NCBI RefSeq assembly: GCF_016745095.1
Contig: NZ_CP067087.1
Span: 686,501 to 750,500, forward strand
DNA: 64,000 bases
DNA from: Croceicoccus sp. YJ47
GTDB taxonomy: Bacteria; Pseudomonadota; Alphaproteobacteria; Sphingomonadales; Sphingomonadaceae
Reading direction: 5' to 3'
Part shown: one piece after another, positions 32,587 to 48,745 of the stretch
Position numbering within the stretch: the first letter of the stretch is position 1
How the letters are laid out: each line of letters starts with the position of its first letter
Position numbers and translations under genes: made by a program
The notes under the pieces: model-generated
Told to the model about the DNA's origin: nothing
Database searches by the model: none
Seen by the model: the letters and a program-made list of their open reading frames with translations, nothing else

Positions 32587-33043
32587 AATCGCGCTTTGCG
32601 CCGATCTCGCGCGCGCGGTCGAACAGCTTGCTCAGCGTGCGCAGCAGCGTCTCGCGCTCGCTCGCCGACAGCACATGGAGCAACGACGCCTCCATCTCCA
32701 GCGCGAGCGGCATGACCGCGTCGAAGATTTCGGTCCCCTCCTCCGTCAGTTCGAGAAGATGGGACCGGCCGTCGTTCGCATTGGGCCTGCGTTTGATGAG
32801 CGCACGGTCGCACAACACCTTGCACGCGCGATTGACTGCGACCTTGTCCATGAACGTCGCGGCGACTAGATCGCGCTGCGTCAACGCGCCCGCATCGCCC
32901 AGAATCGCCATGACGCGCCATTCGGATACCCTGAGCCCGAAGCGCCGACGATATTCGCGCGCAATATTGTCGCTGACCATGTTGGAGGTGACGGACAGGC
33001 GATAAGGCAGAAAGTCGGCAAGGCGGGACGAAAGCTGTTTCAT
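32585..33043 (-). CDS. MarR-family transcriptional regulator
   Basis: Dimeric winged-helix repressor type: VSEWRVMAILGDAGALTQRDLVAATFMDKVAVNRACKVLCDRALIKR is the recognition region and NDGRSHLLELTEEG the wing. 152 residues, no obvious ligand clue. It is divergent from the Oar-like receptor gene, with 427 bases between the start codons, so it may control that gene as well as itself; this is inference from position. No cysteine pair suggesting a redox sensor of the OhrR type is seen at the N-terminus. Confidence 0.92.
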   Translation of the reverse strand: MKQLSSRLADFLPYRLSVTSNMVSDNIAREYRRRFGLRVSEWRVMAILGDAGALTQRDLVAATFMDKVAVNRACKVLCDRALIKRRPNANDGRSHLLELTEEGTEIFDAVMPLALEMEASLLHVLSASERETLLRTLSKLFDRAREIGAKRD

Positions 33044-33470
33044 AGCGTTTCCCTATCGCGCAAACGCCGCTTCGCCAAGCGTCGCTTCGCCATTTAGCTT
33101 AGTATGTTACGCGAATACCTGCCCGTGGCGCATTTAAATATCCGCAAACGACCCTCGCGACCGTCTTGTCTTTCGCCCGGCGCACCGCGACTCATGATCG
33201 AGCGACTTTACGCGCAAAACGCCCTTTGCCGCCTTGTACGACGGTTCCACGCCGATGCTCGGGATCCGTCGCGATCGCACGTGGACGGCAAAAAAGGATA
33301 TACTGTTGCCCGATAACAACATGATGTGCGTAATCGTTGATTTTGTGACTTAATTAAATTGCAAAAAAATGACGGTCGGGGGAGCCTCTGAACTCTCCTT
33401 TAACGGCGCGAGCCGAGGGGTACGGATTCCTTGGGGGCATCCGATGTATGACATTAGAGGGACTGAACAC
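33044..33470. promoter_or_regulatory. Divergent intergenic region (marR / TonB-dependent receptor), AT-rich centre
   Basis: 427 bases without a convincing gene. The part near 33300-33365 is far more AT-rich than its surroundings (runs such as TTAATTAAATTGC and A7). TTGATT at about 33339 followed by AT-rich hexamers could be a promoter for the receptor. The leader from there to ATG 33471 would be about 100 bases and holds AGAGGGA as ribosome site. A 70-codon open frame at 33104-33316 lacks protein character. Confidence 0.45.
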
Positions 33471-36400
33471 ATGAAAGCTTGGACTTTCCGCAAGCAGGCG
33501 CTTGCCACCGGTTCGGCGCTGCGCGCGATTGCGCTGATCGGCGCCGGAACCGCGGCGATCGGCGTGGCCACCGCGCCCGCCCATGCGCAGGATTTCACGC
33601 GCGGCTCGATCACGGGCATCGTCGTCGACGAGGCAGGCAACGCGGTGCAGGGCGCCAATGTCACGCTCACCTCGAACGAGCAGGGCTTCAACAACACTGC
33701 GGTCACCGATGCCGACGGTTCGTTCCGGATCAACGGCCTGCCGACCGGTTCCTACTCGATCACCGTCACGTCGCAGGGTGCCGTCGTCGTGCGTGATACC
33801 GGCGTGCGCGTCGTCGCCGGCCAGAACACCGCCTATCGCTACATTGCGGGTGAAAGCACGCTGGGCGAGGAAGTCGCGGGCGGCGAAGGTATCGTCGTCG
33901 TTGGTCGCCGTATCCAGGTGAACGATTTCGCCGCGACGCAGACGGGCGTGACCCTCGACGTCGAAGATCTTGCGCAGACCGTCCCCGTAGGCCGCGATCA
34001 GACCTCGCTCATCCTGCTGGCGCCGGGCACCACGCCGGGCGACGAAGGCTTTGGCAACCTGGCCTCGATCAACGGCGCGACCGTTGCCGAGAACCAGTAT
34101 TACATCAACGGCCTCAACGTCACCGATTTCCGTAACCTGCTCGGCAGCTCGATCGTTCCGTTCGAGTTCTACCGTACCACCGACGTCAAGACGGGCGGCT
34201 ATCAGGCGGAATACGGCCGTGCGCTGGGCGGCGTGATCTCTTCGATCACGAAATCCGGCTCCAACGAATTCGCCGGCGGCGCGGTCGTCGTGTACGAACC
34301 GCAGGGCCTGCGCAGCCAGACGCCCAACACTTTTGTCGATGCGGATTCCGATCCCGAGACCGAAGGCGACATCATCGGCAATCTGAACTCGCGCGATTAC
34401 GACCAGTCGCTCGACGGCAACTTCTACCTGTCCGGTCCGATCATCAAGGATCGCCTGTTCTTCTACGGCCTTTACAACGCGCGCTATCGCGAAAATGCCG
34501 ACACGTCGTTCTCGGGCGCGCGCACGACGACGATCCGCGACGACAGCCCGTTCTTCGGCGGCAAGCTCGACTTCGTGATCGCCGACGGCCATCGTCTCGA
34601 AGGCACCTATTTCCGCGACAAGGTGACGCGCGACATCATCTACACCGGCTTTGACACCGAAAACATGGTCGATGGCGAAGTGCAGGGCGGCCTGAGGCAG
34701 GAATTCGGCGGCGACAACTTCATCGGTACCTACTCTGGTCAATTTACCGACTGGCTGTCGATTTCCGGCTCCTATGGTCAGTACAATGACAATACGACGC
34801 AGGTCGCCAGCCCGAACAACGCCTATATCCTCAGCCGGATCGGCAGCACGCGTGTCGTAGGCGGCACGAGCACCGGGCGAAACAACGACGAGAGCAAGCG
34901 CGAATTCTACCGTGCCGACGCCGACATCTACGTCGACTTCCTTGGCGAGCACCACATCCGCGGCGGTTTCGATCTTGAAAAGCTGTCGGCTGGCGAGAAC
35001 ACGACCTATAACGGTACGGGCTATCGCTATGACGTGCGGTCCAACCTCGCGATCCGCTGGTACTACCTCAACGAAGGCGGGTTCAACACCGATCAGCGCG
35101 CCTTCTATCTTCAGGATTCGTGGTCGCTGCTCGACAATCGCGTGAACCTGCAGCTCGGCGTCCGTAATGACAGCTTCAAGAACTACGGCGTCACCGGCGC
35201 GAAATTCTATGATTCGGGCGATCTTTGGGCACCGCGCCTGGGCGCATCGTTCGACGTGTTCGGCGACGGCGCGACCAAGCTGAACGTTTTCTATGGTCAG
35301 TATTACCTGCCGATCGCGACGAACACGAACATCCGCCTCGGCGGTGCCGAGACCTATTATCAGCAGGTCGATTTCTACGGCACCTCGCAGGATCTGAACG
35401 GCGATGGTATTCCCGATCAGTATACGCTCGACGAAAATGGCGACATCGTCGGCTTCGATGCGAACTTCGGCGGGGGCGTCTGCCCCGAGGGCACGCCCAA
35501 TGCAGGCGAAGTGTGTAACAACGTTTATAGCGATGGCACCGCCGGGCCGACCGACACGCTGGTGTCGCAGACCCTGAAGCCGAGCCGGACCGACGAATAT
35601 ATCATCGGTCTGGAGCACCGGATCGGCGATTGGCGCGCGTCCATCAACTACACCCGTCGCCGCCTGGCCTCGACGCTGGAGGACGCCGCGATCGATGCTG
35701 CGGTCAATTCCTATTGCGCCGACAACGGTATCGCGGGCTGCGAAGATGTATTCACTGGCTACCACCAGTACGTGCTGCTCAATCCGGGCGAAGACGTGAC
35801 CGTGCGCCTCGACGGCGACTGCTCCATCGAAGGGCAGTGCGATGTCGTGACCCTCGATGCGGCATCGCTTGGCTATCCCGAAGCGGTACGCGATTACGAC
35901 GCGGTGCAGTTCGAACTGGAGAAGGCGTATAACGGTCTCTACGGTTTCCGGTTCAACTACACCTACATGGACCTTCGCGGTAACTTCGAAGGTGCGGTGA
36001 AGTCGGACAACAACCAGACCGACGCCGGCCTGACGCAGGATTTCGACCAGCCGGGCTTCCTCGAAGGCGCGACGGGCCCCCTTGCCAACGGCCGCAAGCA
36101 CACCTTCAAGCTCTACGGCAATGTCAGCCCGACCGAATGGCTCGACCTTGGCGCGAACATGACCGTGTCCAGCCCGCGCAAGTTCAGCTGTATCGGTAAC
36201 TACTTCGATTCGAACAACTTCGCGGCGGGTTACGGTGCGGCATCCTACTACTGTACCCAGGACGGCGTCGGCGGCACCCCGGTCGAGAATTCGGGTGGCA
36301 CGACGTCCTATCTCGTCCCCCGCGGTTCCGCGTTCGAATCCGAATGGAGCAAGAATGTCGATCTCAGCGTCACGTTCAAGCCATTCGCCAGCAACCGGAA

Positions 36401-36590
36401 CATCCAGTTCCAGACCGCGGTCTTCAACGTGTTCAACTGGAAGCAGGAATCCGACTACAACGAATTCGGCGATTACGATCTCGACTATACGCCGAACGGC
36501 AACCCGAACTATGGCCGCGTGACCGCCTATCAGGCGCCGCGTGCGGTCCGGTTCACCATGTTCATGCGTTTCGGAGGCGACGCGAAATAA
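33471..36590 (+). CDS. TonB-dependent receptor, Oar-like, with N-terminal carboxypeptidase-regulatory domain
   Basis: Outer-membrane receptor that imports a ligand using TonB energy. ATG 33471 gives a signal peptide (SALRAIALIGAGTAAIGVATAPAHAQ). Residues about 43-125 are a CarboxypepD_reg-like domain (GSITGIVVDEAGNAVQGANVTL). The plug follows (EGIVVVGRR; VNDFAATQTGV; NQYYINGLNVTDFRNLLG; TGGYQAEYGRALGGVISSITKSGSNEF), then a large barrel. 1,039 residues. The C-terminus is FTMFMRFGGDAK, so it lacks a terminal aromatic residue. The ligand is unknown; Oar-like proteins are often tied to peptide or protein export/import. A terminator follows the stop. Confidence 0.92.
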   Translation: MKAWTFRKQALATGSALRAIALIGAGTAAIGVATAPAHAQDFTRGSITGIVVDEAGNAVQGANVTLTSNEQGFNNTAVTDADGSFRINGLPTGSYSITVTSQGAVVVRDTGVRVVAGQNTAYRYIAGESTLGEEVAGGEGIVVVGRRIQVNDFAATQTGVTLDVEDLAQTVPVGRDQTSLILLAPGTTPGDEGFGNLASINGATVAENQYYINGLNVTDFRNLLGSSIVPFEFYRTTDVKTGGYQAEYGRALGGVISSITKSGSNEFAGGAVVVYEPQGLRSQTPNTFVDADSDPETEGDIIGNLNSRDYDQSLDGNFYLSGPIIKDRLFFYGLYNARYRENADTSFSGARTTTIRDDSPFFGGKLDFVIADGHRLEGTYFRDKVTRDIIYTGFDTENMVDGEVQGGLRQEFGGDNFIGTYSGQFTDWLSISGSYGQYNDNTTQVASPNNAYILSRIGSTRVVGGTSTGRNNDESKREFYRADADIYVDFLGEHHIRGGFDLEKLSAGENTTYNGTGYRYDVRSNLAIRWYYLNEGGFNTDQRAFYLQDSWSLLDNRVNLQLGVRNDSFKNYGVTGAKFYDSGDLWAPRLGASFDVFGDGATKLNVFYGQYYLPIATNTNIRLGGAETYYQQVDFYGTSQDLNGDGIPDQYTLDENGDIVGFDANFGGGVCPEGTPNAGEVCNNVYSDGTAGPTDTLVSQTLKPSRTDEYIIGLEHRIGDWRASINYTRRRLASTLEDAAIDAAVNSYCADNGIAGCEDVFTGYHQYVLLNPGEDVTVRLDGDCSIEGQCDVVTLDAASLGYPEAVRDYDAVQFELEKAYNGLYGFRFNYTYMDLRGNFEGAVKSDNNQTDAGLTQDFDQPGFLEGATGPLANGRKHTFKLYGNVSPTEWLDLGANMTVSSPRKFSCIGNYFDSNNFAAGYGAASYYCTQDGVGGTPVENSGGTTSYLVPRGSAFESEWSKNVDLSVTFKPFASNRNIQFQTAVFNVFNWKQESDYNEFGDYDLDYTPNGNPNYGRVTAYQAPRAVRFTMFMRFGGDAK

Positions 36591-36628
36591 GCGTTTCCAC
36601 CAAAGCGCCGGACACCGGACAAATGGAA

Positions 36629-36655
36629 AGGGGCGGCTTCGGCTGCCCCTTTTTA
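36629..36655 (+). terminator. Rho-independent terminator of the Oar-like receptor gene
   Basis: Nine-bp stem (AGGGGCGGC with GCTGCCCCT, one G-U pair) capped by the stable TTCG tetraloop and followed by TTTTT. It ends 56 bases before the sulfotransferase start, so that gene needs read-through or its own promoter. Confidence 0.85.
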
Positions 36656-36710
36656 TTGACCCGGCCTTGCGCCCCAGCCCATCATTCCTGTTCACCATGG
36701 ACCATGCCCG

Positions 36711-39635
36711 ATGCCATCCCCCGATGTGACAACCGCCGCCGCCGCGTTTCAGGCCGCCAATCGCGCCGACGACCGCCCGGCGCTGCTCGCCGCGGCGCGC
36801 GTGCTTGTGGAGCAGCGCGCACCGATCGGGCCGCAATGGAATTTCGCGGCGCAGGCGATCATGCGCTGCGGCGATCTCGATCTTGCCCTGCGCGCACTCG
36901 ATTTGTGGCAGGATCAGGCCGCACCGCCCCATGCCGCCGTGCATGAGAAAGCCGTTCTCCTCGCGCAGTCGGGGCGTGAGGACGACGCGCTTGCCCTTGT
37001 CGCGCAGCTTCCCGAAACGCACCCCTCGCCCGTTGCCAATGCGTATCTGCGCGGGTCCATCGCCGCCAATCTGGGGCGCCGGGACGAGGCGGAACGCCAT
37101 TATCGCCGTGCCGTGGCCGCCTTGCCCGTATCGGGTCGGTCATGGGTCGGGCTGGCGCAGCTCGACCGGCTCACCCCTTCGGACCGGGCCGCCATCCGCG
37201 CCCGGCTCGACGCCCCCGACGCAAACCGGATCGAAACGGTCGACCGTGCGGGCCTGCACCATGCGCTCGCCATCGCCGCCGATCGGGAGCAGGACCACGC
37301 GAAGGCCTTCGACCATTTCGACGCGGCAACCCGGATTCAGGCCGAGCTATACGCCTATACGGCGCGAGACGACGAGAATTCCGCGCGGACCGCCCGGATG
37401 TGGCACGCACCCGATATCGCCGACCATGCCATCGCCGGCCCCGCGCCGGAGCGGCAGCCGATTTTCGTTACCGGCCTCGCGCGAAGCGGCACTACGCTGG
37501 TTCAACAATTGCTTGCCGCGCATTCGCTGGTCGATGGCGGCCGGGAGCTTGGCCTTACCGTGCCTGTGGAGGCGATGACGGGCGGGTTCGCCCCCGCGGA
37601 TTTCGACCGTTATCGCGCCCGTGGCGGCACGATGGAGGCGCTGCGCGACACCTATCTCCGCTTCGCCGGTCAACGCATTTCCGGCACCGGGCGCTTCGTC
37701 GACAAGACGCTCAACGCCAGCCGGGCGATCGGCCCGCTCGCGGCGATGTTTCCCGATGCGCCTTTTGTCTGGTTGCGCCGCGATCCGCTCGACAATGCGT
37801 GGTCCATCTATCGCGCGTGGTTTTCGAACAATGTGCTATCCGGATGGTCGCTTGCCGATATCGCGCACCACATGATGGTGGAGGATCGCATGCACGCCCA
37901 CTGGGCCGATGTTCTCGGCGACCGGATGCTGACCGTGCCGTATGCCGATCTTGTCGAACATCCGGAGGAATGGACGCGCCGGATCACCAGCTTTTGCGGG
38001 CTGGAGTTTGAGCCCGGCCAGATGAACTTTCACCGCCGCGCCGGCGCGGTCAGCACGGCCAGCGCCCTGCAGGTGCGCGAACCCGTCAATCGCAAGGGTA
38101 TCGGCGCGGCGGCTCCCTATCGCCGCTGGCTCGACCCGTTCATGCGCGTGTATCGCGCCCCACCCGTCGATACGCCGCCGGACCCCGCGACGCTGGTGGC
38201 CGGATTGAAGGACGGTCTCGCGCGGCAGGATATCCTCGCGATCAACCACGCGGCGAAGGGCCTGATCGCGGCGAAGGCCCCGATGGGCAATTCCTGGCGC
38301 GCCATCGCGCAGGCCTTGTTGCGCAATGGCGAGAAAACCGCCGCGCGGGATGCGATGCGCCTGCTGGAGGAGAACGGCGGCCATACGCGCGCGCTGCGGA
38401 TCGAGCGGGCCGCATTCGTCGCCCGGTCCGGATTGCCGGAGGACGCGCGGCGGCTTCTGACCGAAGGCGCCGGCAATGCGCAGGACGCCTCCGCCTCGCT
38501 GCAATTTCTAATGGGATCGATCGCCACCAATCTCGGCGAAGCGGAGGAGGCCGCCGACCATTTCCGCCGTGCGGCAAGGATGCAGCCGGCATCGGGACAA
38601 TGCTGGCTCGGCCTCGCGATGACGGGCGCCGCCGACGATGCCGACCATCGGGCGATGGAGGATGCGTCCGCCGCGCTCGCCCAGGCGCCGCCGGCCGAAC
38701 GCTCGGCATGGCACTATGCGCTCGGCCACATGCGCCATCTTGCGGGCGAGCATGGGCGCACATTCGATGCCTTCGAAAAGGGTGCGGCCCATATGGCACC
38801 GCTGCGCCCGTTCGACCGGGAGGCCGATCGCGCCGATGCCCGCGCGGCGGTGGATGGCTGGGCCGAGGGGCTCCGCGACACGCGCGGGGCGGATCGGCGC
38901 AAACCGGTGCGCGACCCCGTGTTCGTGACGGGCCTGCCGCGGTCCGGGTCGACACTGGTGGAGCAGATCCTCGCCGCCCATTCCGCGGTCGCCGGCGGGG
39001 GCGAACTCGGGCTGCTTCGCCTGCTTGAGCAACGGATCGGGGGCAAGTCGTACGGCGCCTTCGCCCACTGGGAACGCGATGGCGGCCGGGTCGACGATCT
39101 TGTCGCGCATTACGATCATCTCCTGAACGAAAGCGTGACGCGGGACGGGCGCGTTATCGACAAGACTCTGTCGACCTCCCGCCATCTCGGGCTCGTGGCG
39201 ATGGTATTGCCCGATGCGCCGGTCGTTTGGGTGCGGCGCGATCCGCTCGACAATGCGTGGTCGGCCTATCGCACATGGTTTGTCGAGGGCGTCGCGTGGA
39301 GCTGGAACCAGGCCGATATCGCGGCGCACATGGCGTGCGAGGATGCGCTCCACGATCACTGGCAAGACGTTCTGGGCGACAGGATGCTGACCATTGCATA
39401 CGAAACGCTGGTCGCCGATCCCGCGACCGAGATCGGCCGTATCCTCGATCATTGCGGGCTCACGCGGGAGGCTGCGTGCTTTGCCCCGCACGAAACGAAG
39501 CGCAGCGTCATCACCGCCAGCGCGATGCAGGTGCGCGCACCGATCAACCGCCGCGGCATCGGCGTCGCCGAACCCTATCGCGTCCGACTCGCCCCGTTCG
39601 AAGCGGCCCGGCGCAGCAACGACAGCCCTCTTTAA
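36711..39635 (+). CDS. Tandem double TPR-sulfotransferase fusion protein
   Basis: 974 residues made of two complete copies of a TPR plus sulfotransferase module. Module 1 (about 1-480) has TPR-like helices then the PAPS-binding loop IFVTGLARSGTTL at 251-263 and the 3'-phosphate motif RRDPLDNAWSIYRAWF at 356-371. Module 2 (about 485-974) repeats this: TPR region, VFVTGLPRSGSTL at 737-749, RRDPLDNAWSAYRTWF at 842-857. Each also has (V/I)DKTL and VLGDRMLT. P-loop spacing is 486 residues. A 26-bp identical stretch (37779-37804, 39237-39262) sits exactly 486 codons apart, consistent with internal duplication. No signal peptide is seen, so a cytoplasmic place is likely; the acceptor is unknown. Known TPR-sulfotransferases usually have one module. 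It lies between two TonB-dependent receptor genes, all on the plus strand. Confidence 0.9.
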   Translation: MPSPDVTTAAAAFQAANRADDRPALLAAARVLVEQRAPIGPQWNFAAQAIMRCGDLDLALRALDLWQDQAAPPHAAVHEKAVLLAQSGREDDALALVAQLPETHPSPVANAYLRGSIAANLGRRDEAERHYRRAVAALPVSGRSWVGLAQLDRLTPSDRAAIRARLDAPDANRIETVDRAGLHHALAIAADREQDHAKAFDHFDAATRIQAELYAYTARDDENSARTARMWHAPDIADHAIAGPAPERQPIFVTGLARSGTTLVQQLLAAHSLVDGGRELGLTVPVEAMTGGFAPADFDRYRARGGTMEALRDTYLRFAGQRISGTGRFVDKTLNASRAIGPLAAMFPDAPFVWLRRDPLDNAWSIYRAWFSNNVLSGWSLADIAHHMMVEDRMHAHWADVLGDRMLTVPYADLVEHPEEWTRRITSFCGLEFEPGQMNFHRRAGAVSTASALQVREPVNRKGIGAAAPYRRWLDPFMRVYRAPPVDTPPDPATLVAGLKDGLARQDILAINHAAKGLIAAKAPMGNSWRAIAQALLRNGEKTAARDAMRLLEENGGHTRALRIERAAFVARSGLPEDARRLLTEGAGNAQDASASLQFLMGSIATNLGEAEEAADHFRRAARMQPASGQCWLGLAMTGAADDADHRAMEDASAALAQAPPAERSAWHYALGHMRHLAGEHGRTFDAFEKGAAHMAPLRPFDREADRADARAAVDGWAEGLRDTRGADRRKPVRDPVFVTGLPRSGSTLVEQILAAHSAVAGGGELGLLRLLEQRIGGKSYGAFAHWERDGGRVDDLVAHYDHLLNESVTRDGRVIDKTLSTSRHLGLVAMVLPDAPVVWVRRDPLDNAWSAYRTWFVEGVAWSWNQADIAAHMACEDALHDHWQDVLGDRMLTIAYETLVADPATEIGRILDHCGLTREAACFAPHETKRSVITASAMQVRAPINRRGIGVAEPYRVRLAPFEAARRSNDSPL
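37779..39262 (+). repeat. 26-bp direct repeat marking the internal gene duplication
   Basis: Identical 26-base copies at 37779-37804 and 39237-39262 encode the RDPLDNAW motif of each sulfotransferase module. They are 1,458 bases (486 codons) apart. The identity may reflect strong codon constraint or recent conversion between modules. Confidence 0.8.
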
Positions 39636-39897
39636 ATTATTGTGAAACTTTTTCCGCTTTCGCACTGTCTCCCACGGCAAGACCGCCCAACTGTATCAGA
39701 AATGTCACAGATTTTCGCGAAAGGTTTCCGAAGATACCAATAGGTTTTGCATAACCCCGGCGAGTTTGAGAGTGGCGCCGCCCTGAAAGTTTTGCCCGTC
39801 CGGTGCGATCGAACCACAGCGGTTCCGTTCGGCATCGCGCCGTCGCCACCGCGTGACGTGCGGATCGGACGGGCGACCAGCAAAGGGAATGGATTCC

Positions 39898-42800
39898 ATG
39901 AAAGCCTCTTTTCGTAACAAGCGCCTGCTTGCCGCCAGCTCGGCCCTGCGTGCGGTTGCCCTGATCGGCGCCGGCAGCGCCGCAGCCCTGTCGGTTCCCG
40001 CCTTCGCGCAGGCCGGCGACACCGATGGCGTCGTGACCGAGGAACAGGTCAGCGCGCCGATCGTGGTGACCGGTTCGCGCATCCGCCGCGCCAATCGCGA
40101 CACGATCGAGCCTGCGATCGTCGTCGATTCGCAGCAGATCGAGGAACGCGGCCAGACCAGCGTCGGCGAAGCACTCGAGGATCTTCCCGCATTCGGCCCC
40201 CCGGCGAACAACCCCGTCGGCGGCCAGGGCGGCAGCTTCGGTTCGGGCCAGACCTTCATCAACTTCTTCGGCCTGGGTTCGCAGCGCACGCTGACGCTGC
40301 TCAACAGCCGCCGCTATGTCAGCTCGAACACCGCGTCGATCTTCGGCCCGGTCGCGGCCGGCTCGCAGGTCGATCTCAACACCATTCCCACGCTGATGGT
40401 CGACCGGCTTGAGACGATCGCGGTCGGCGGCGCGCCGATCTACGGCGCCGACGCCATCGCCGGCACCGTGAACGTCATCCTCAAGGACCGCTTCGAAGGT
40501 GTTCGCTTCGACGCGCAGATGGGCATTGCCGAAGAAGGCGACGCCCGCGAATATCGCCTCGGCGCACTCACGGGCACCAGCTTTGGCGACGGGCGCGGCA
40601 ACATTGTCGCGGCCTTCGAATATAACCGCACCAACGGCCTGACCTATCGCGATCGTGACCGGACCGCGCGCGGCCTGTTCTATGCCGCGCCGAACGATCC
40701 CGATTCCCCCTTCGATCAGGTGATCATCGAGGATCGTCGCATTCCGATCCTGAGCCAGTTCGGCGCCCCCTCGACCGCAGACGCGTTCCCCGGTCTTGGC
40801 GCCGACATCACCGACAGCGCCGGCAACACGCTGGTGTTCGACGCGAACGGCAACCTCGTTCCGCTCGACTTCGGCGAACGTTTCGGCACGGTCAATTCCT
40901 CGGGTGGCAATGGCTTCAGCCTCGTCGACGTGTCGAACCTGCGTTCGCCGGTCGAACGTTACCTCGGCGCGATTCAGGGCACCTATGACCTGACGGACAA
41001 CGTCACCGCATTCTTCGAAGGGCAATATGCCAATTCGAAGGGCACCGAACTGCGTGCGCAGCCGGTGTACAACACCGCCCTGTTCGATGCCGGCGGCGCG
41101 CCCGACGGCAATCTGATCATCCCGATCGACAATCCGTTCCTGACGGACGAGGCACGCGCCACAATCGCCGCGCAGCTTCCCGAAGGTCAGGATTTCTTCT
41201 ACCTCGGCCGCGCCAACACCGACCTCATTTCCGGTCGCGGTTCGTCGACGGTGGAAGTGTACCGCTTTGCCGGCGGCCTGCGCGGCGATTTCACGCTGGG
41301 CGAACGCGACCTGAACTGGGAAGTGTCCGGCCTGTACGGTCGTTCGAAGACCGACGGCCGCAGCCGCGAGCTGGTGCAGCAGAACTTCGAGAACGCGCTG
41401 GCCGGTTGCCCCGCCGGCGCCGCATCCGCGCCGATCGACACGGTCAGCGCGACCTGCGTGCCGTTCAACCCGTTCGGCAACCAGAATTCGCAGGCCGTGG
41501 CGGATTACATCACGACCATCGCGAACCCCGTCGCCCTGAACGAACAGTACGACTTCATTGCCACGGTCGGCGGCGACCTGTTCAATATCTGGAGCGGTCC
41601 GGTCGCGTTCTCGCTCGGTTACGAGCACCGCGACGAATCCTCGGACTTCGATCCGGGTGAATTCTTCTTCGGTCAGGTGAACCCCGACGATCCGGACGGC
41701 CCCCGTGACCAGTTCGGCCGTTCGATCCCGATCGACGCCGTGTCCGGTTCGTACAACACGGACGAGGTGTTCGGCGAGGTGCTCGTGCCGCTCGTCACGC
41801 CGGCGATGGAAGTGCCGTTCGCCAATCTGATCGAGGTGAAGGGTGCGGCGCGTTACGTCGACAATTCGCTGACGGGCGGTGATCTCACCTGGACCGCAGG
41901 CGGCCGCTGGCAGCCGGTGCGTGACATCACGTTCCGCGGCAATTTCACCCGTTCGATCCGTTCGCCCGCGATTACCGAGCTGTTCAACCCGACCAGCGCG
42001 ATCTTCACGACCGCAGACGATCCGTGCGATGCGCGCTTCATCAATGCGGGTCCGAACCCGACCCAGCGTGCGGCAAACTGCGCAGCGGCGGGGCTTCCGG
42101 CGAACTTCACCTCCAACATCGTCGATTTCACGACGCGCGGTTCGCTTTCGGGCAACACCAATCTGGAGAATGAAAAGGCGGACAGCTGGACGGTCGGCTT
42201 CGTGTTCACCCCGACCTTTGCCCGCGGGCTCACGCTCTCGGCCGACTGGGTCGACATCTCGCTCGAAGGCGCGATCCAGAGCGTCGATGCCGAGCAGACG
42301 CTCGAGGCATGCTATGACGCGACGAGCTTCCCGTCGGATGCATGTGGCCGGATCGACCGCGACGCCGCCGGTCAGGTGGAATTCGTGCGCACCGGCTACC
42401 TCAACGTCGCAAGCTACGACTACAAGGGTCTGGTGAGCGAAGTGCGCTGGGTGCAGCCGACCCCGTTCCTCGGCGCGGACAGCCGCGTGACGGTGCGCGG
42501 TTCGTACCAGTATATCGATCAGCTCGAAACGCGGGTCGGTTCCGGCGATCTGGAAACGCTGCGTGGCGGTATCGGCTATTCGAAGCATCAGGGCACGCTG
42601 GGCCTGAGCTACGACAATGATGCGTTCGGCGTCTTCGGTCAGGGTCGTTACATCGGCGAGGCCGTGGTCGATCCCGACGCCGCGCCCGAGACGTACGAAT
42701 TCTTCGAGCGTGACGATGTCATCTTCGTGGATGCCGGCATCAGCTTCAAGGCTGGCGACGACATGGTTCTGCGCCTCATCGGGGAGAATATCTTCGACAC

Positions 42801-42900
42801 CAGCGCGCCGTTCCCCTCGCCCGCCGGTGGCGGTCTCGTGACCTATTTCGACGGGATCATGGGCCGCTACTTCAAGGTGGCTGCGACCTTCGGCTTCTGA
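39898..42900 (+). CDS. TonB-dependent receptor (second copy type, no N-terminal regulatory domain)
   Basis: Outer-membrane active importer. Start at ATG 39898 with AAAGGGA 11-17 bases upstream; ATG 39889 is too close to that site. Signal peptide core SALRAVALIGAGSAAALSVPAFAQ resembles that of the Oar-like receptor. Then a TonB-box-like APIVVTGSRIRRAN, plug motifs (VGEALEDLPAFG; LLNSRRYV; RLETIAVGGAPIYGADAIAGTVNVIL) and a barrel ending in FKVAATFGF with a terminal Phe, as Bam substrates have. 1,000 residues. Substrate unknown. The 262 bases before it contain no gene. A bidirectional terminator follows. Confidence 0.93.
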   Translation: MKASFRNKRLLAASSALRAVALIGAGSAAALSVPAFAQAGDTDGVVTEEQVSAPIVVTGSRIRRANRDTIEPAIVVDSQQIEERGQTSVGEALEDLPAFGPPANNPVGGQGGSFGSGQTFINFFGLGSQRTLTLLNSRRYVSSNTASIFGPVAAGSQVDLNTIPTLMVDRLETIAVGGAPIYGADAIAGTVNVILKDRFEGVRFDAQMGIAEEGDAREYRLGALTGTSFGDGRGNIVAAFEYNRTNGLTYRDRDRTARGLFYAAPNDPDSPFDQVIIEDRRIPILSQFGAPSTADAFPGLGADITDSAGNTLVFDANGNLVPLDFGERFGTVNSSGGNGFSLVDVSNLRSPVERYLGAIQGTYDLTDNVTAFFEGQYANSKGTELRAQPVYNTALFDAGGAPDGNLIIPIDNPFLTDEARATIAAQLPEGQDFFYLGRANTDLISGRGSSTVEVYRFAGGLRGDFTLGERDLNWEVSGLYGRSKTDGRSRELVQQNFENALAGCPAGAASAPIDTVSATCVPFNPFGNQNSQAVADYITTIANPVALNEQYDFIATVGGDLFNIWSGPVAFSLGYEHRDESSDFDPGEFFFGQVNPDDPDGPRDQFGRSIPIDAVSGSYNTDEVFGEVLVPLVTPAMEVPFANLIEVKGAARYVDNSLTGGDLTWTAGGRWQPVRDITFRGNFTRSIRSPAITELFNPTSAIFTTADDPCDARFINAGPNPTQRAANCAAAGLPANFTSNIVDFTTRGSLSGNTNLENEKADSWTVGFVFTPTFARGLTLSADWVDISLEGAIQSVDAEQTLEACYDATSFPSDACGRIDRDAAGQVEFVRTGYLNVASYDYKGLVSEVRWVQPTPFLGADSRVTVRGSYQYIDQLETRVGSGDLETLRGGIGYSKHQGTLGLSYDNDAFGVFGQGRYIGEAVVDPDAAPETYEFFERDDVIFVDAGISFKAGDDMVLRLIGENIFDTSAPFPSPAGGGLVTYFDGIMGRYFKVAATFGF

Positions 42901-42924
42901 TCCTTCAAGAAGCCTGCGCATAAA

Positions 42925-42957
42925 AAAACGGGCCCGGCCATAAGCCGGGCCCGTTTT
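42925..42957. terminator. Bidirectional terminator between the TonB receptor and clpB
   Basis: AAAACGGGCCCGGC, 5-nt loop, GCCGGGCCCGTTTT: an A run before and a T run after a 10-bp GC stem, so it can stop transcription from both convergent genes. Confidence 0.9.
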
Positions 42958-42997
42958 CGTATCGGGCTGCATTATCGGATCGGGGTGCGTCCTCGAA

Positions 42998-45577
42998 TTA
43001 CGCGACGCGCATCTGCAATTCGCCGTCGCCCTCGTCGATATGGACGGTGCTGCCATCGGCGATCTCGCCACGCAGCAGCCGGTCGGCGAGCGGGTCCTGC
43101 AAATGGCGCTGCACCGCGCGTTTCAACGGGCGCGCGCCATAGACAGGATCGTAACCGACCCGCCCGAGCCAGCGTTTCGCCGCATCGGTGAGGTCGAGCG
43201 TGATCTTCCGATCCTTGAGCAATTTCTGCACCCGACCCACCTGAATATCGACGATCGGCGCCATGTGCTCCTCGCCCAAGCGATGGAACAGGATGATCTC
43301 GTCCAGCCGGTTCAGGAATTCGGGCCGGAAATGCCCGCGCACCACATCCATCACCTGCGGTTCGACATCGGCGACGGTCTGCCCGTCCTCCATATTCGCG
43401 AGATACTGGCTGCCGAGGTTGGAGGTGAGGATGATCAGCGTGTTGCTGAAATCCACCTGCCGCCCCTGCCCGTCGGTCAGCCGCCCGTCGTCGAGCACCT
43501 GCAGCAGCACGTTGAACACGTCGGCGTGCGCCTTCTCCACCTCGTCGAACAGCACGACCTGATACGGGCGGCGGCGCACCGCCTCGGTCAGGACGCCGCC
43601 TTCGTCATAGCCGACATAGCCCGGCGGCGCCCCGATCAGGCGGGACACGGCGTGCTTCTCCATGAATTCGCTCATGTCGATGCGGACCATCGCATTGTCG
43701 TCGTCGAACAGGAACCCGGCCAGCGCCTTCGTCAGTTCGGTCTTCCCGACGCCGGTGGGGCCGAGGAAGAGGAAGCTGCCGAGCGGACGGTTCGGATCCT
43801 GTAGGCCCGCACGGGCGCGCCGCACCGCCTTCGATACCGCCTCGACCGCCTGGTTCTGCCCGATGACCCGCTTGCCCAGCGCGCCTTCCATGTTGAGCAG
43901 CTTTTCGCGCTCCCCCTCCAGCATGCGATCGACGGGCACACCGGTCCAGCGGCTGACGACGCCGGCGATGTCGTCCTCCGTCACCACCTCGCGCAGCATC
44001 GCGTTTTCGGATTGTGCCTTGGCCTCTTCCAATTGCCGGTCGAGTTCAGGGATGCGGCCGTAGGACAGCTCGCCCGCCTTCGCGAGATCGCCGGCCCGCT
44101 GCGCCTGTTCCAGCTCGATCCGCGCGGCGTCGAGCTGCTCCTTGATGCGGCCCTCGGCGGCGATCTTGTCGCGCTCGTTCTGCCAGCGGGTGGTCAGCTC
44201 GCTCGACTGCTGCTCGAGGTTGGCGAGTTCCTCGCGCAGTGCGCTCAGCCGGTCCTGCGACGCGGCATCGGTTTCGCGCTGGAGCGCCTGTTCCTCGATC
44301 TTGAGCTGGATGATGCGGCGGTCGAGATTCTCGATCTCTTCGGGCTTGCTCTCCACCTCCATGCGGATGCGGCTCGCCGCCTCGTCCATGAGGTCGATCG
44401 CCTTGTCGGGGAGGAAACGGTCCGCGATATAGCGGTTCGACAGCGTCGCCGCCGCCACCAGCGCATTGTCCGAAATGGTGACGCCGTGGTGCAGCTCGTA
44501 TTTCTCCTTGAGCCCGCGCAGGATCGACACCGTGTCCTCCACCGTGGGTTCGTCGACGAAGACCGGCTGAAACCGGCGCTGGAGGGCGGCGTCCTTCTCG
44601 ACATATTTCTGATATTCGTCGAGCGTCGTCGCACCGATGCAGTGCAGCTCGCCGCGGGCGAGCGCGGGTTTCAGGAGGTTGCCCGCGTCCATCGCCCCTT
44701 CCGACTTGCCCGCCCCGATGAGCGTGTGCATCTCATCGATGAACAGGATGATATGGCCCTCGGCGCCCTTCACCTCGTCGAGCACGGCCTTCAACCGCTC
44801 CTCGAACTCGCCACGATATTTCGCGCCCGCAATCAGGCTTCCCATGTCGAGCGACATCAGCGTGCGGTCTTTGAGGCTGTCGGGCACATCGCCATTCGCA
44901 ATGCGCAGGGCCAGGCCTTCGGCAATGGCTGTCTTGCCGGTGCCGGGTTCGCCGATCAGGACCGGATTGTTCTTCGTCCGGCGGGCAAGGATCTGCACCG
45001 TGCGGCGGATTTCCTCGTCCCGGCCGATCACGGGGTCGAGCTTGCCGGCACGCGCCGCCTCGGTCAGGTCGCGGGCGTATTTCTTCATCGCATCGTAGCT
45101 TTCCTCGGCACTTGCGCTGTCGGCGGTGCGGCCGCCGGTGGCCTCCTGGATCGCGGCCTCCAGCGCCTGCGCATCGACATTCGCGGATTTCAGCGCCTGC
45201 CCCGCCGCATTCGCTTGCGACAATGCGAGCGCCTGCAACACGCGCTGCACCGGCACGAAGCTGTCGCCGGCCTTCTGGCTGAGCTGCTCCGCCTGATCGA
45301 GGACGCGAACCGCATCGTTGTCCAGCCCCGGCGTCGCCTGCGCGCCGCTTCCCGACACGGCGGCGATTTTTGCCAGCGCCGCATCGGCCTGCGCTTCGGC
45401 CTGCTTCGCATTGCCGCCGGCGCGCTGAATCAACTGCGCCGCCATGCCCTCGTTATCCTCGAGCAAGGCCTTCAGGATATGGGCGGGCGAAATCCGTTGA
45501 TGATTGTTGCGGATCGCCACGGTCTGCGCCGCCTGCAGAAAGCCTTTGGCGCGATCGGTAAATTTTTCGAGATTCAT
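42998..45577 (-). CDS. clpB: ATP-dependent chaperone ClpB
   Basis: Hexameric Hsp100 disaggregase that works with DnaK to recover aggregated proteins. Clp N-domain ([18 protein letters not shown]), first AAA+ ring with Walker [10 protein letters not shown], long coiled-coil middle domain (about 400-525; EREKLLN-type linker after it), and second ring with GPTGVGKTE and the C-terminal D2-small domain. 859 residues, the full length. Start ATG 45577. The upstream region has candidate heat-shock promoters, in line with sigma-32 control in the family. Confidence 0.97.
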
Positions 45578-45683: not shown

Positions 45684-45818
45684 GGGCCGTGTCTACCGCG
45701 AACGGACCGATCTTCGCGTTCGGGACGGCGTTCTAAGGCTGGCGTTTCCGGTTGAAACTGATACCGAATAGCGCGCTCGCGCCGTCTGGCGCCATGATCG
45801 ATTGAGGGGGATTTATCC

Positions 45819-48725
45819 ATGCGTATCATCACCGCCTGCCTTGCCGCCGTTTCCTCGCTCGCGCTGTCGGCCTGCGCCGTGCAGAATGCGAGTGTGCCCG
45901 TCGCCGCAAATGCACCCGCCCCGGACATGGCCCCTTCGATGGCAGAGCCCGCCTCGCTCGACGCGCTGATCGCCGAGGTCGATATTCCCTATGACCGGTT
46001 CACGCTGGACAACGGCCTGACCGTGCTGGTGCATGAGGATCGCAAGGCGCCGCTGGTCGCCGTTTCGGTCTGGTACGGCGTGGGATCGAAACATGAGCCC
46101 GAGGGCAAGACCGGTTTTGCCCATCTGTTCGAGCACCTGATGTTCAACGGGTCGGAAAATGCGCCGGGCGATTTCTTTCAACCGTTGCAGGATGCCGGCG
46201 CGACCGATTTCAACGGCACGACCTGGTTCGACCGCACCAACTATTTCGAGACCGTGCCGACCGGCGCGCTCGACCGTGCGCTGATGCTGGAAAGCGACCG
46301 CATGGGCTATCTGCTCGGCGCGGTGACGCAGGAAAAGCTCGATAACCAGATCGGCGTGGTTCAGAACGAAAAGCGTCAGGGCGACAATCAGCCCTACGGC
46401 ATGGTCGAATATCTGGAGCTTGAAACGCTCTATCCCGAAGCGCACCCCTATGCCCATTCGACGATCGGCTCGCTGGAAGACCTGTCGTCCGCCACGCTCG
46501 ACGATGTGAAGGACTGGTTCCGCGATCATTACGGGCCGAACAATGCAGTGCTCGTGCTGTCGGGCGATATCGACACCGCGACGGCGCGGGCAAAGGTGTC
46601 GAAATGGTTCGGCGCCATCCCGGCCGGCCCGGCCATCGCGCCGGTCGCCGCGCCGGTGCCGACGCTTCCCGCCGATGTCGAACGCACGCTCACCGACCAG
46701 GTGGCGACGACGCGCGTCTATCGCATCTGGGCGACGCCGGGGCTCGACAATCCCGATTACCTGCCGCTCGATGCTGCCGCGTCCGTGCTCGGCGGGCTGG
46801 CGAGCTCGCGGCTCGACAATACGCTGGTCCGGGATGAGGAGATCGCCGTCCGCGTCGTCGCCAGCAACAGCGCCTTTGCCCAGGGCGGGCAATTCACCGT
46901 CTATGCCGACGTGAAGGACGGCGTCGATCCGCAGGAGGTCGCCGACGCGCTCGACCGCGAAATCGCCCGCATGATCGCGCAGGGACCGACCGAGGATGAA
47001 TTGCTGCGGGCCAAGACCACCTATGCCGCGTCGCAGATCCGCGGCCTCGACAATCTCGGCGGGTTTGCGGGCAAGGCACCGACGCTCGCGCAGAGCCTCC
47101 TGTACCAAGGCTCGCCCGACGCGTACAAACGGGAGCTGCAACGCGCCGCCGACCTGACCCCGGCGCAGGTTCGCACCGCGGCGCAGACATGGCTGTCCCG
47201 GCCCGTCTTCCGCCTCACGGTGGAGCCGGGCGAACGGAACGAGGAAGGCGCCACGCCCGGAAGCTACCGCACCGGTACCGATGGCGCACTGCGCGGCCCG
47301 GCCTTCTTCATGCAGCCGGGCACCGATCCTGCCGCCGTCATGACGCAGGCAGAGGCGGACCGCTCGCAATTGCCGGAGATCGCTGAGCTTGCCGCACTCG
47401 ATTTCCCGGAGATACAGCGTGCCACATTGTCGAACGGGATCGAGGTCTATTTCGCGCAGCGCGACGCGATCCCGACCGTGTCGATCCGGCTCGCCTTCGA
47501 CGCAGGCTATGCCGCCGATCCGCGCGATTCGCTGGGCACGCAATCGCTGATGCTGTCGTTGATGGACGAAGGCACGGCGACGCTCGATGCCGAGCAGCTG
47601 GCCATTGCGAAGGAACGGCTCGGTGCCTCGATCGGGTCGGGGGCGAGCCTCGACGAAACCTATTTTCAGCTCGACGCCCTGGCGCCCAATCTCCTGCCCT
47701 CGCTCGAACTCCTGTCGGACTATGTGCGCAATCCCGCCTTCGCGCAGGACGATCTCGACCGGGTACGTGCGCAGCAATTGAACCGGCTCGACAATGAGCT
47801 GACCTCGCCCGGCGCCATTGCGCAGCGGGCGCTGTTCCCGCTGCTTTACGGGCCGAACCACCCCTATGGCATTCCGCCGTCGGGCCTCGGCAATCGCGCC
47901 GCGGTGGAGGCGGTTTCCCAAGGCCAGATCGCGGGCTTTCATGACACATGGCTGCGCCCCGATCTGGCGAAGATCTTCGTCGTCGGGGACAGTTCGCTCG
48001 GTGAAATCACGCGGCTGCTGGAGGCGAGTTTCGGCGATTGGCAGGCTCCGGCGACGTCCGCGCCGACGAAGGACTTCAACGTCGATGTCCCGGCACAGCA
48101 ATCGCGCATCGTGTTGATCGACCGGCCCAATTCGCCGCAATCGATCGTCTTGGGCGCGCGCGTGCTGGATCAGAAGGGCACTGACGATCTCGTGCCGCTG
48201 GGCAGCGCCAATTACGTGTTCGGCGGCAATTTCCTCTCGCGCATCAACATGAACCTGCGCGAGACGAAGGGCTGGTCCTATGGCGTGCGGAGCATCGTGT
48301 CGCGGCCCGTCGATCGTTCCTCCTTCATGATCTATGCCCCGGTGCAGGCGGACCGGACGGGCGACTCCATCGCGGAATTGCGCCGCGACCTCTCCGCCTT
48401 CACCGCCGACAAGGGCGTGAGCGCGTCCGAGCTCAGCGCCCTGGTCAATTCCAACATCCGGGAATTGCCCGGTTCGTTCGAAACGCAGGGCGACGTGCTG
48501 GGCGGCATCACGAGCATCGTGCGCAACGGGTGGAGCGACGATTATTACGAAATGCTCGCCGACCGCTATCGCGGCCTGACCGCGGCGCAGCTCGATGCCG
48601 AGGCCCGCTCCGCCTTTCGAGGGGACGATCTCGTCTTCGTGGTGGTCGGCGATGCGGACGTGGTGGAACCGCAGCTGGAATCGCTCGGCCTTCCGGTGGA
48701 GGTCCGCACGCCTTCGGGCGAATAG
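45819..48725 (+). CDS. M16-family zinc metallopeptidase, lipoprotein, two-domain (pitrilysin type)
   Basis: N-terminal lipoprotein signal with lipobox LSAC (Cys-19). Two homologous M16 halves follow. The first carries the inverted zinc motif HLFEH (His-102, Glu-105, His-106) in a region reading GKTGFAHLFEHLMFNGS, with the distal Glu in QNEKRQGD. The second half (from about 525) lacks the motif and holds the R/Y pair region TKGWSYGVRS typical of the inactive half. 968 residues, probably facing the periplasm, degrading peptides. It stands alone, divergent from clpB (241 bases) and convergent with gatB. Confidence 0.92.
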   Translation: MRIITACLAAVSSLALSACAVQNASVPVAANAPAPDMAPSMAEPASLDALIAEVDIPYDRFTLDNGLTVLVHEDRKAPLVAVSVWYGVGSKHEPEGKTGFAHLFEHLMFNGSENAPGDFFQPLQDAGATDFNGTTWFDRTNYFETVPTGALDRALMLESDRMGYLLGAVTQEKLDNQIGVVQNEKRQGDNQPYGMVEYLELETLYPEAHPYAHSTIGSLEDLSSATLDDVKDWFRDHYGPNNAVLVLSGDIDTATARAKVSKWFGAIPAGPAIAPVAAPVPTLPADVERTLTDQVATTRVYRIWATPGLDNPDYLPLDAAASVLGGLASSRLDNTLVRDEEIAVRVVASNSAFAQGGQFTVYADVKDGVDPQEVADALDREIARMIAQGPTEDELLRAKTTYAASQIRGLDNLGGFAGKAPTLAQSLLYQGSPDAYKRELQRAADLTPAQVRTAAQTWLSRPVFRLTVEPGERNEEGATPGSYRTGTDGALRGPAFFMQPGTDPAAVMTQAEADRSQLPEIAELAALDFPEIQRATLSNGIEVYFAQRDAIPTVSIRLAFDAGYAADPRDSLGTQSLMLSLMDEGTATLDAEQLAIAKERLGASIGSGASLDETYFQLDALAPNLLPSLELLSDYVRNPAFAQDDLDRVRAQQLNRLDNELTSPGAIAQRALFPLLYGPNHPYGIPPSGLGNRAAVEAVSQGQIAGFHDTWLRPDLAKIFVVGDSSLGEITRLLEASFGDWQAPATSAPTKDFNVDVPAQQSRIVLIDRPNSPQSIVLGARVLDQKGTDDLVPLGSANYVFGGNFLSRINMNLRETKGWSYGVRSIVSRPVDRSSFMIYAPVQADRTGDSIAELRRDLSAFTADKGVSASELSALVNSNIRELPGSFETQGDVLGGITSIVRNGWSDDYYEMLADRYRGLTAAQLDAEARSAFRGDDLVFVVVGDADVVEPQLESLGLPVEVRTPSGE

Positions 48726-48745
48726 ACCGACACACAGGCACAAGG

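Follow-up and report, generated by a model that had tools for sequence, protein, structure and literature searches.

A putative fusion of two diverged TPR-sulfotransferase paralogues beside a TonB-dependent receptor gene in Croceicoccus

The window analysed here, a stretch of 64,000 nucleotides from Croceicoccus sp. YJ47, contains an open reading frame (36711-39635 on the + strand, with an ATG start, a TAA end and zero internal stops) whose 974-aa product carries two successive TPR-sulfotransferase modules. It is flanked by two receptor genes:

33468-36590, + strand: TBDR1, an Oar-like TonB-dependent receptor with an N-terminal carboxypeptidase-regulatory domain (PF13620, E 3e-18); 33468 is the likely start
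36630-36654, + strand: terminator-like hairpin with a T run, between TBDR1 and the sulfotransferase gene (comparison of joints)
36711-39635, + strand: fused two-module TPR-sulfotransferase, 974 aa (ORF, Pfam, Croceicoccus homologues, AlphaFold2)
36711-38162, + strand: module A, residues 1-484, with a TPR solenoid at about 4-239 and a sulfotransferase domain at about 250-480 (Pfam, alignment, AlphaFold2, tree)
38163-39632, + strand: module B, residues 485-974, with a TPR solenoid at about 492-724 and a sulfotransferase domain at about 736-969 (Pfam, alignment, AlphaFold2, tree)
39853-42900, + strand: TBDR2, a second TonB-dependent receptor, downstream (PF00593 and PF07715)

Long antisense frames on the - strand (33354-37100, 39637-43071 and 45813-48743; 1248, 1144 and 976 aa) mirror receptor and peptidase genes and are probably shadow ORFs of GC-rich coding DNA.

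The Sulfotransfer_3 family (PF13469) matches the protein twice (E 7e-77 and 259 bits for the whole protein; 126-139 bits per half, curated cut-off 27), and Pfam matches to the TPR families TPR_2, TPR_8 and TPR_14 precede each sulfotransferase domain. AlphaFold2 (pLDDT 89.4) predicts both halves as complete, high-confidence modules with 14 helices ahead of each catalytic domain, and its pTM of 0.58 makes the mutual placement of A and B uncertain. The TPR-like helices that the first-pass annotation had described in both halves are recovered both by Pfam and in the structure prediction it had proposed. Modules A and B are 41% identical across 468 aligned residues (score 824; shuffled mean 46.5, sd 7), and the joint between them is a stop-free coding linker. 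Since the N-terminus has no signal-peptide-like start, the enzyme is presumably cytosolic and shares a compartment with PAPS. The host genome (complete, 3.35 Mb) encodes two more TPR-sulfotransferases, both single-module in a profile search, as well as an APS kinase, which makes a supply of PAPS for the predicted sulfate transfer plausible.

Alignments place the PAPS-binding motifs of both modules as follows:

37464-37499, + strand: PAPS 5'-phosphosulfate loop of module A, FVTGLARSGTTL, residues 252-263
37776-37805, + strand: 3'-phosphate motif of module A, RRDPLDNAWS, residues 356-365
38922-38957, + strand: PAPS 5'-phosphosulfate loop of module B, FVTGLPRSGSTL, residues 738-749
39234-39263, + strand: 3'-phosphate motif of module B, RRDPLDNAWS, residues 842-851

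The spacing from A to B is exactly 486 residues for both the loop pair and the RRDPLDNAWS pair, and the reading frame and the half-versus-half alignment agree on this point with the first-pass annotation. The key residues are present in both halves (R258/R744, E279/E765, K332/K818, R357/R843, S365/S851 and S451/S937) and are invariant in all 53 of the 53 modules of related loci. When both halves are aligned with TPST1/2, the RSG[TS]T loop and the Glu that follows it, the Lys of DKT and the Arg and Ser of RRDPLDNAWS are all kept, with R258/E279/K332 and R744/E765/K818 occupying the positions of the TPST1/2 catalytic Arg/Glu/Lys. An S-x-x-QVR loop (S451, S937), matched by eye, also occurs in both halves. 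Both active sites thus look intact, as had been proposed, with the Glu, the Lys and the S-x-x-QVR loop as additional shared elements. Comparison of Croceicoccus species gives a dN/dS of about 0.18 in module A and 0.19-0.23 in module B, which shows both halves under purifying selection and neither in decay.

A search for proteins of the same length and architecture, suggested at the outset, found the 974-aa form in two further Croceicoccus genomes (95% and 89% identity, three assemblies in total) and a fused pair in two other genera (G126 and G492). The G492 pair (985 aa) has an intact third module (489 aa) as its next gene, whose ATG directly abuts the stop codon of the fused gene (L122:6895-11322, + strand). 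In four genomes (G060, G094, G102 and G243), A and B are separate neighbouring genes that follow the same receptor gene in unchanged order, overlapping by four bases in G094; here A orthologues were assigned by clade and those of B, whose modules are not monophyletic, by position. Since cases are few among the roughly 670 distinct genomes surveyed (mostly of the same family, at varied cut-offs), the double-module architecture is rare, and no further double module appeared among about 160 loci examined, consistent with the earlier statement that the family is normally single-module. The first-pass annotation had named two observations that would count against it, double modules being common and one half lacking catalytic residues; the architecture's rarity and the invariant residues are the opposite of both. 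A contig scan of the genomes returned just two close relatives, and long frames with sulfotransferase matches in G004, G147, G140, G032, G087, G122 and G059 proved to be single modules only.

The two modules differ in their placement in the tree. Module A forms one clade (100% support) that branches from within the B-type and single modules of its locus, while module B groups with single-module genes of that locus without forming one clade. Because of this nesting, module A is, by phylogeny, a derived duplicate of single origin that arose within the receptor-linked locus. A symmetric internal duplication is rejected, as A and B are older paralogues in the tree, and the one duplicated module assumed at first gives way to a fusion of two older, diverged tandem paralogues. 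"Pseudo-dimer", the term first applied to the protein, is still apt as a description, but its origin lies in the fusion of diverged tandem genes that are still separate in relatives. No bootstrap tree (0%) unites the fused A modules, the AU test gives p 0.061, and fused proteins have different linker sequences, so fusion likely arose twice, in the other genera separately from Croceicoccus; a single origin is disfavoured.

About 22 positions distinguish module A from other modules, and D275 together with about 20 others holds in 8-9 of nine A members. Many of these positions flank the catalytic Glu (D275 and 287-297) or trail the 3'-phosphate motif (362-378), which would put them on the acceptor side of the fold. 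Because they cluster where acceptor contacts are expected, it is plausible that module A has a different acceptor or site than B. The first-pass annotation had reached a similar view from the contrast between VDGGREL and VAGGGEL; different acceptors or sites do seem plausible, but only Croceicoccus has the R of VDGGREL, and it is D275 and the other 20 or so positions that mark A.

The best hint of function lies outside the protein itself, in a receptor linkage that the first-pass annotation had missed and that is the main functional clue. A TBDR1 orthologue stands 81-157 bp from the sulfotransferase gene, co-oriented or convergent, in 22 of 22 lineage loci (one, L150, retrieved via the receptor and the others via the sulfotransferase). 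TBDR1 is therefore a standing partner of the sulfotransferase locus; TBDR2 is variable and occurs at only some related loci. Counted from the receptor side, the enzyme adjoins the receptor orthologue in 14 of the 20 genomes that have one, and the remaining six orthologues stand without it. Outside the lineage, a TonB-dependent receptor lies at most 1.5 kb away at each of the 12 distant TPR-sulfotransferase loci checked, although these loci are related to each other and so are not 12 independent trials; the same holds for all three TPR-sulfotransferases of the genome itself, where receptor-domain profile matches put the chance adjacency of a random gene at about 6.9%. The link is not universal, because a sister clade of single TPR-sulfotransferases is mostly without receptors (within 1.6 kb in just 2 of 20 loci). 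Receptor-free examples from that clade (L107:5206-9837 and L043:8856-10094) lie beside LigAB-type dioxygenase genes or a PEP-CTERM protein.

The hairpin between TBDR1 and the enzyme is kept across genera in 11 of 12 joints examined, and three of its 11 pairs show a change of both partners in at least one sequence. It was missed by a simple terminator scan, apparently since the T run was counted into the stem, and the locus has no Rfam match. Judging from this conserved element, the enzyme is probably made via read-through, at a level below that of the receptor.

Across Croceicoccus, the interval beside clpB (33043-42998 in the window; L175-L183), mostly arranged as tad-marR-slot-clpB, is a variable slot that holds differing TonB-dependent receptors with 0, 1 or 2 TPR-sulfotransferases. 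In G157, a tryptophan halogenase gene (PF04820, E 2e-118; L148:9287-10873, - strand) separates the TBDR1 orthologue from clpB, taking the position that the convergent sulfotransferase holds in G154. The halogenase shares the slot and an orthologous receptor with the TPR-sulfotransferase, but it is an unrelated enzyme with unrelated chemistry. More speculatively, two unrelated tailoring enzymes in one slot would be compatible with the modification of a common substrate.

We suggest that the 974-aa protein is a natural fusion of tandem paralogues that performs two-site or two-acceptor sulfation serving the neighbouring receptor, a reading to which we give an even chance. Each half would transfer sulfate from cytosolic PAPS onto a hydroxyl, with the Glu as base, Arg, Lys and Ser stabilising the transfer, and the TPR solenoid of that half gripping the acceptor. 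A single acceptor could then be sulfated at two sites, one by A and one by B, or each module could have an acceptor of its own, candidates being the receptor polypeptide before export, a peptide, or a compound taken up by the receptor. In this form the first-pass idea that one chain performs two sulfations survives. Fusion would set A and B at 1:1 and hold both sites together, and the upstream hairpin would probably hold the enzyme below receptor level. Receptor Tyr content gives no support to this proposal: neither Tyr nor acidic-Tyr enrichment was found when sulfotransferase-linked and unlinked receptors were compared (p 0.88 and 0.69). As a candidate acceptor, an acidic Tyr cluster close to the C-terminal end of the receptor (ESDYNEFGDYDLDY) was rejected, its Tyr being replaced by Phe or missing in close homologues. 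Also weighing against the proposal are the six receptor orthologues that stand without the enzyme, the largely receptor-free clade of single enzymes and the uncertain placement of the two modules.

Alternatively, the sulfate may go not to a protein but to a small molecule or a glycan (such as a phenolic, a siderophore-like ligand or a surface glycan) that is made or imported with the receptor, with the TPRs merely assembling the complex. The lack of support from receptor Tyr content for a protein acceptor fits such a scheme, as does the ability of a tryptophan halogenase to fill the same receptor-side slot, and Sulfotransfer_3 also spans small-acceptor enzymes (for example, a weak match to the nodulation protein NoeE). 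However, the closest solved relatives modify protein tyrosines and the usual ligands of TPR domains are peptides or proteins, and we regard a small acceptor as somewhat unlikely. We are more doubtful still that only one half is catalytic in the cell and the other a structural or regulatory pseudo-subunit, replacing half of a dimer that single-module relatives would form: gene-fused pseudo-dimers are generally common and A is derived from B by duplication in the tree, but every residue for PAPS binding and catalysis persists in A and B alike in the different species, dN/dS is similar in the two, and even the third module of G492 is intact. An assembly error or two-gene readthrough is scarcely credible as the source of the double module, since, even though relatives do have separate adjacent genes, the 974-aa form recurs in three Croceicoccus assemblies (89-95% identity), G126 and G492 carry fused genes too, and the joint is coding and without a stop.

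Returning to sulfation in the service of the receptor, a broader and more tentative proposal, to which we give somewhat less than an even chance, is that sphingomonad TPR-sulfotransferases are dedicated TonB-receptor partners whose sulfation targets are the receptor or its cargo, that tandem duplication and fusion (one, two or three modules) add sites, and that a tryptophan halogenase can take the same role at the locus. We found no papers on the acceptors or receptor linkage of bacterial TPR-sulfotransferases in the open-licence literature, which makes this a weak absence. These proteins form a large, widely annotated family, and through the receptor linkage, which singles out the Oar-like receptor or its cargo as concrete candidates, family function becomes testable. 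Furthermore, with two apparently live sites in one chain and split-gene relatives, the product of each site should be assignable via simple mutants.

Among known systems, TPST1/TPST2 (3ap1, 5wrj, 8w5z) are nearest in solved sequence and catalytic fold: they are the top catalytic Foldseek matches (target TM about 0.57-0.67) and their Arg, Glu, Lys and 3'-phosphate Arg/Ser align with those of the Croceicoccus modules, but identity is just 22-25% or so and TPSTs are Golgi membrane proteins without a TPR domain. TPR-glycosyltransferases match the solenoid portion. Among them, O-GlcNAc transferase and SPINDLY likewise set a TPR solenoid before a transferase, but they have an unrelated catalytic fold and donor and their match is limited to the solenoid, so that they offer a possible works-like analogy in which the TPRs would recruit the acceptor. 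Also among the closest are the sphingomonad single-module proteins (TPR plus PF13469), named TPR-containing sulfotransferase family proteins in public records, which have the domain order of each half, share its invariant residues and are 34-57% identical to it. They carry one module per chain, whereas the Croceicoccus protein joins the paralogous A and B in one.
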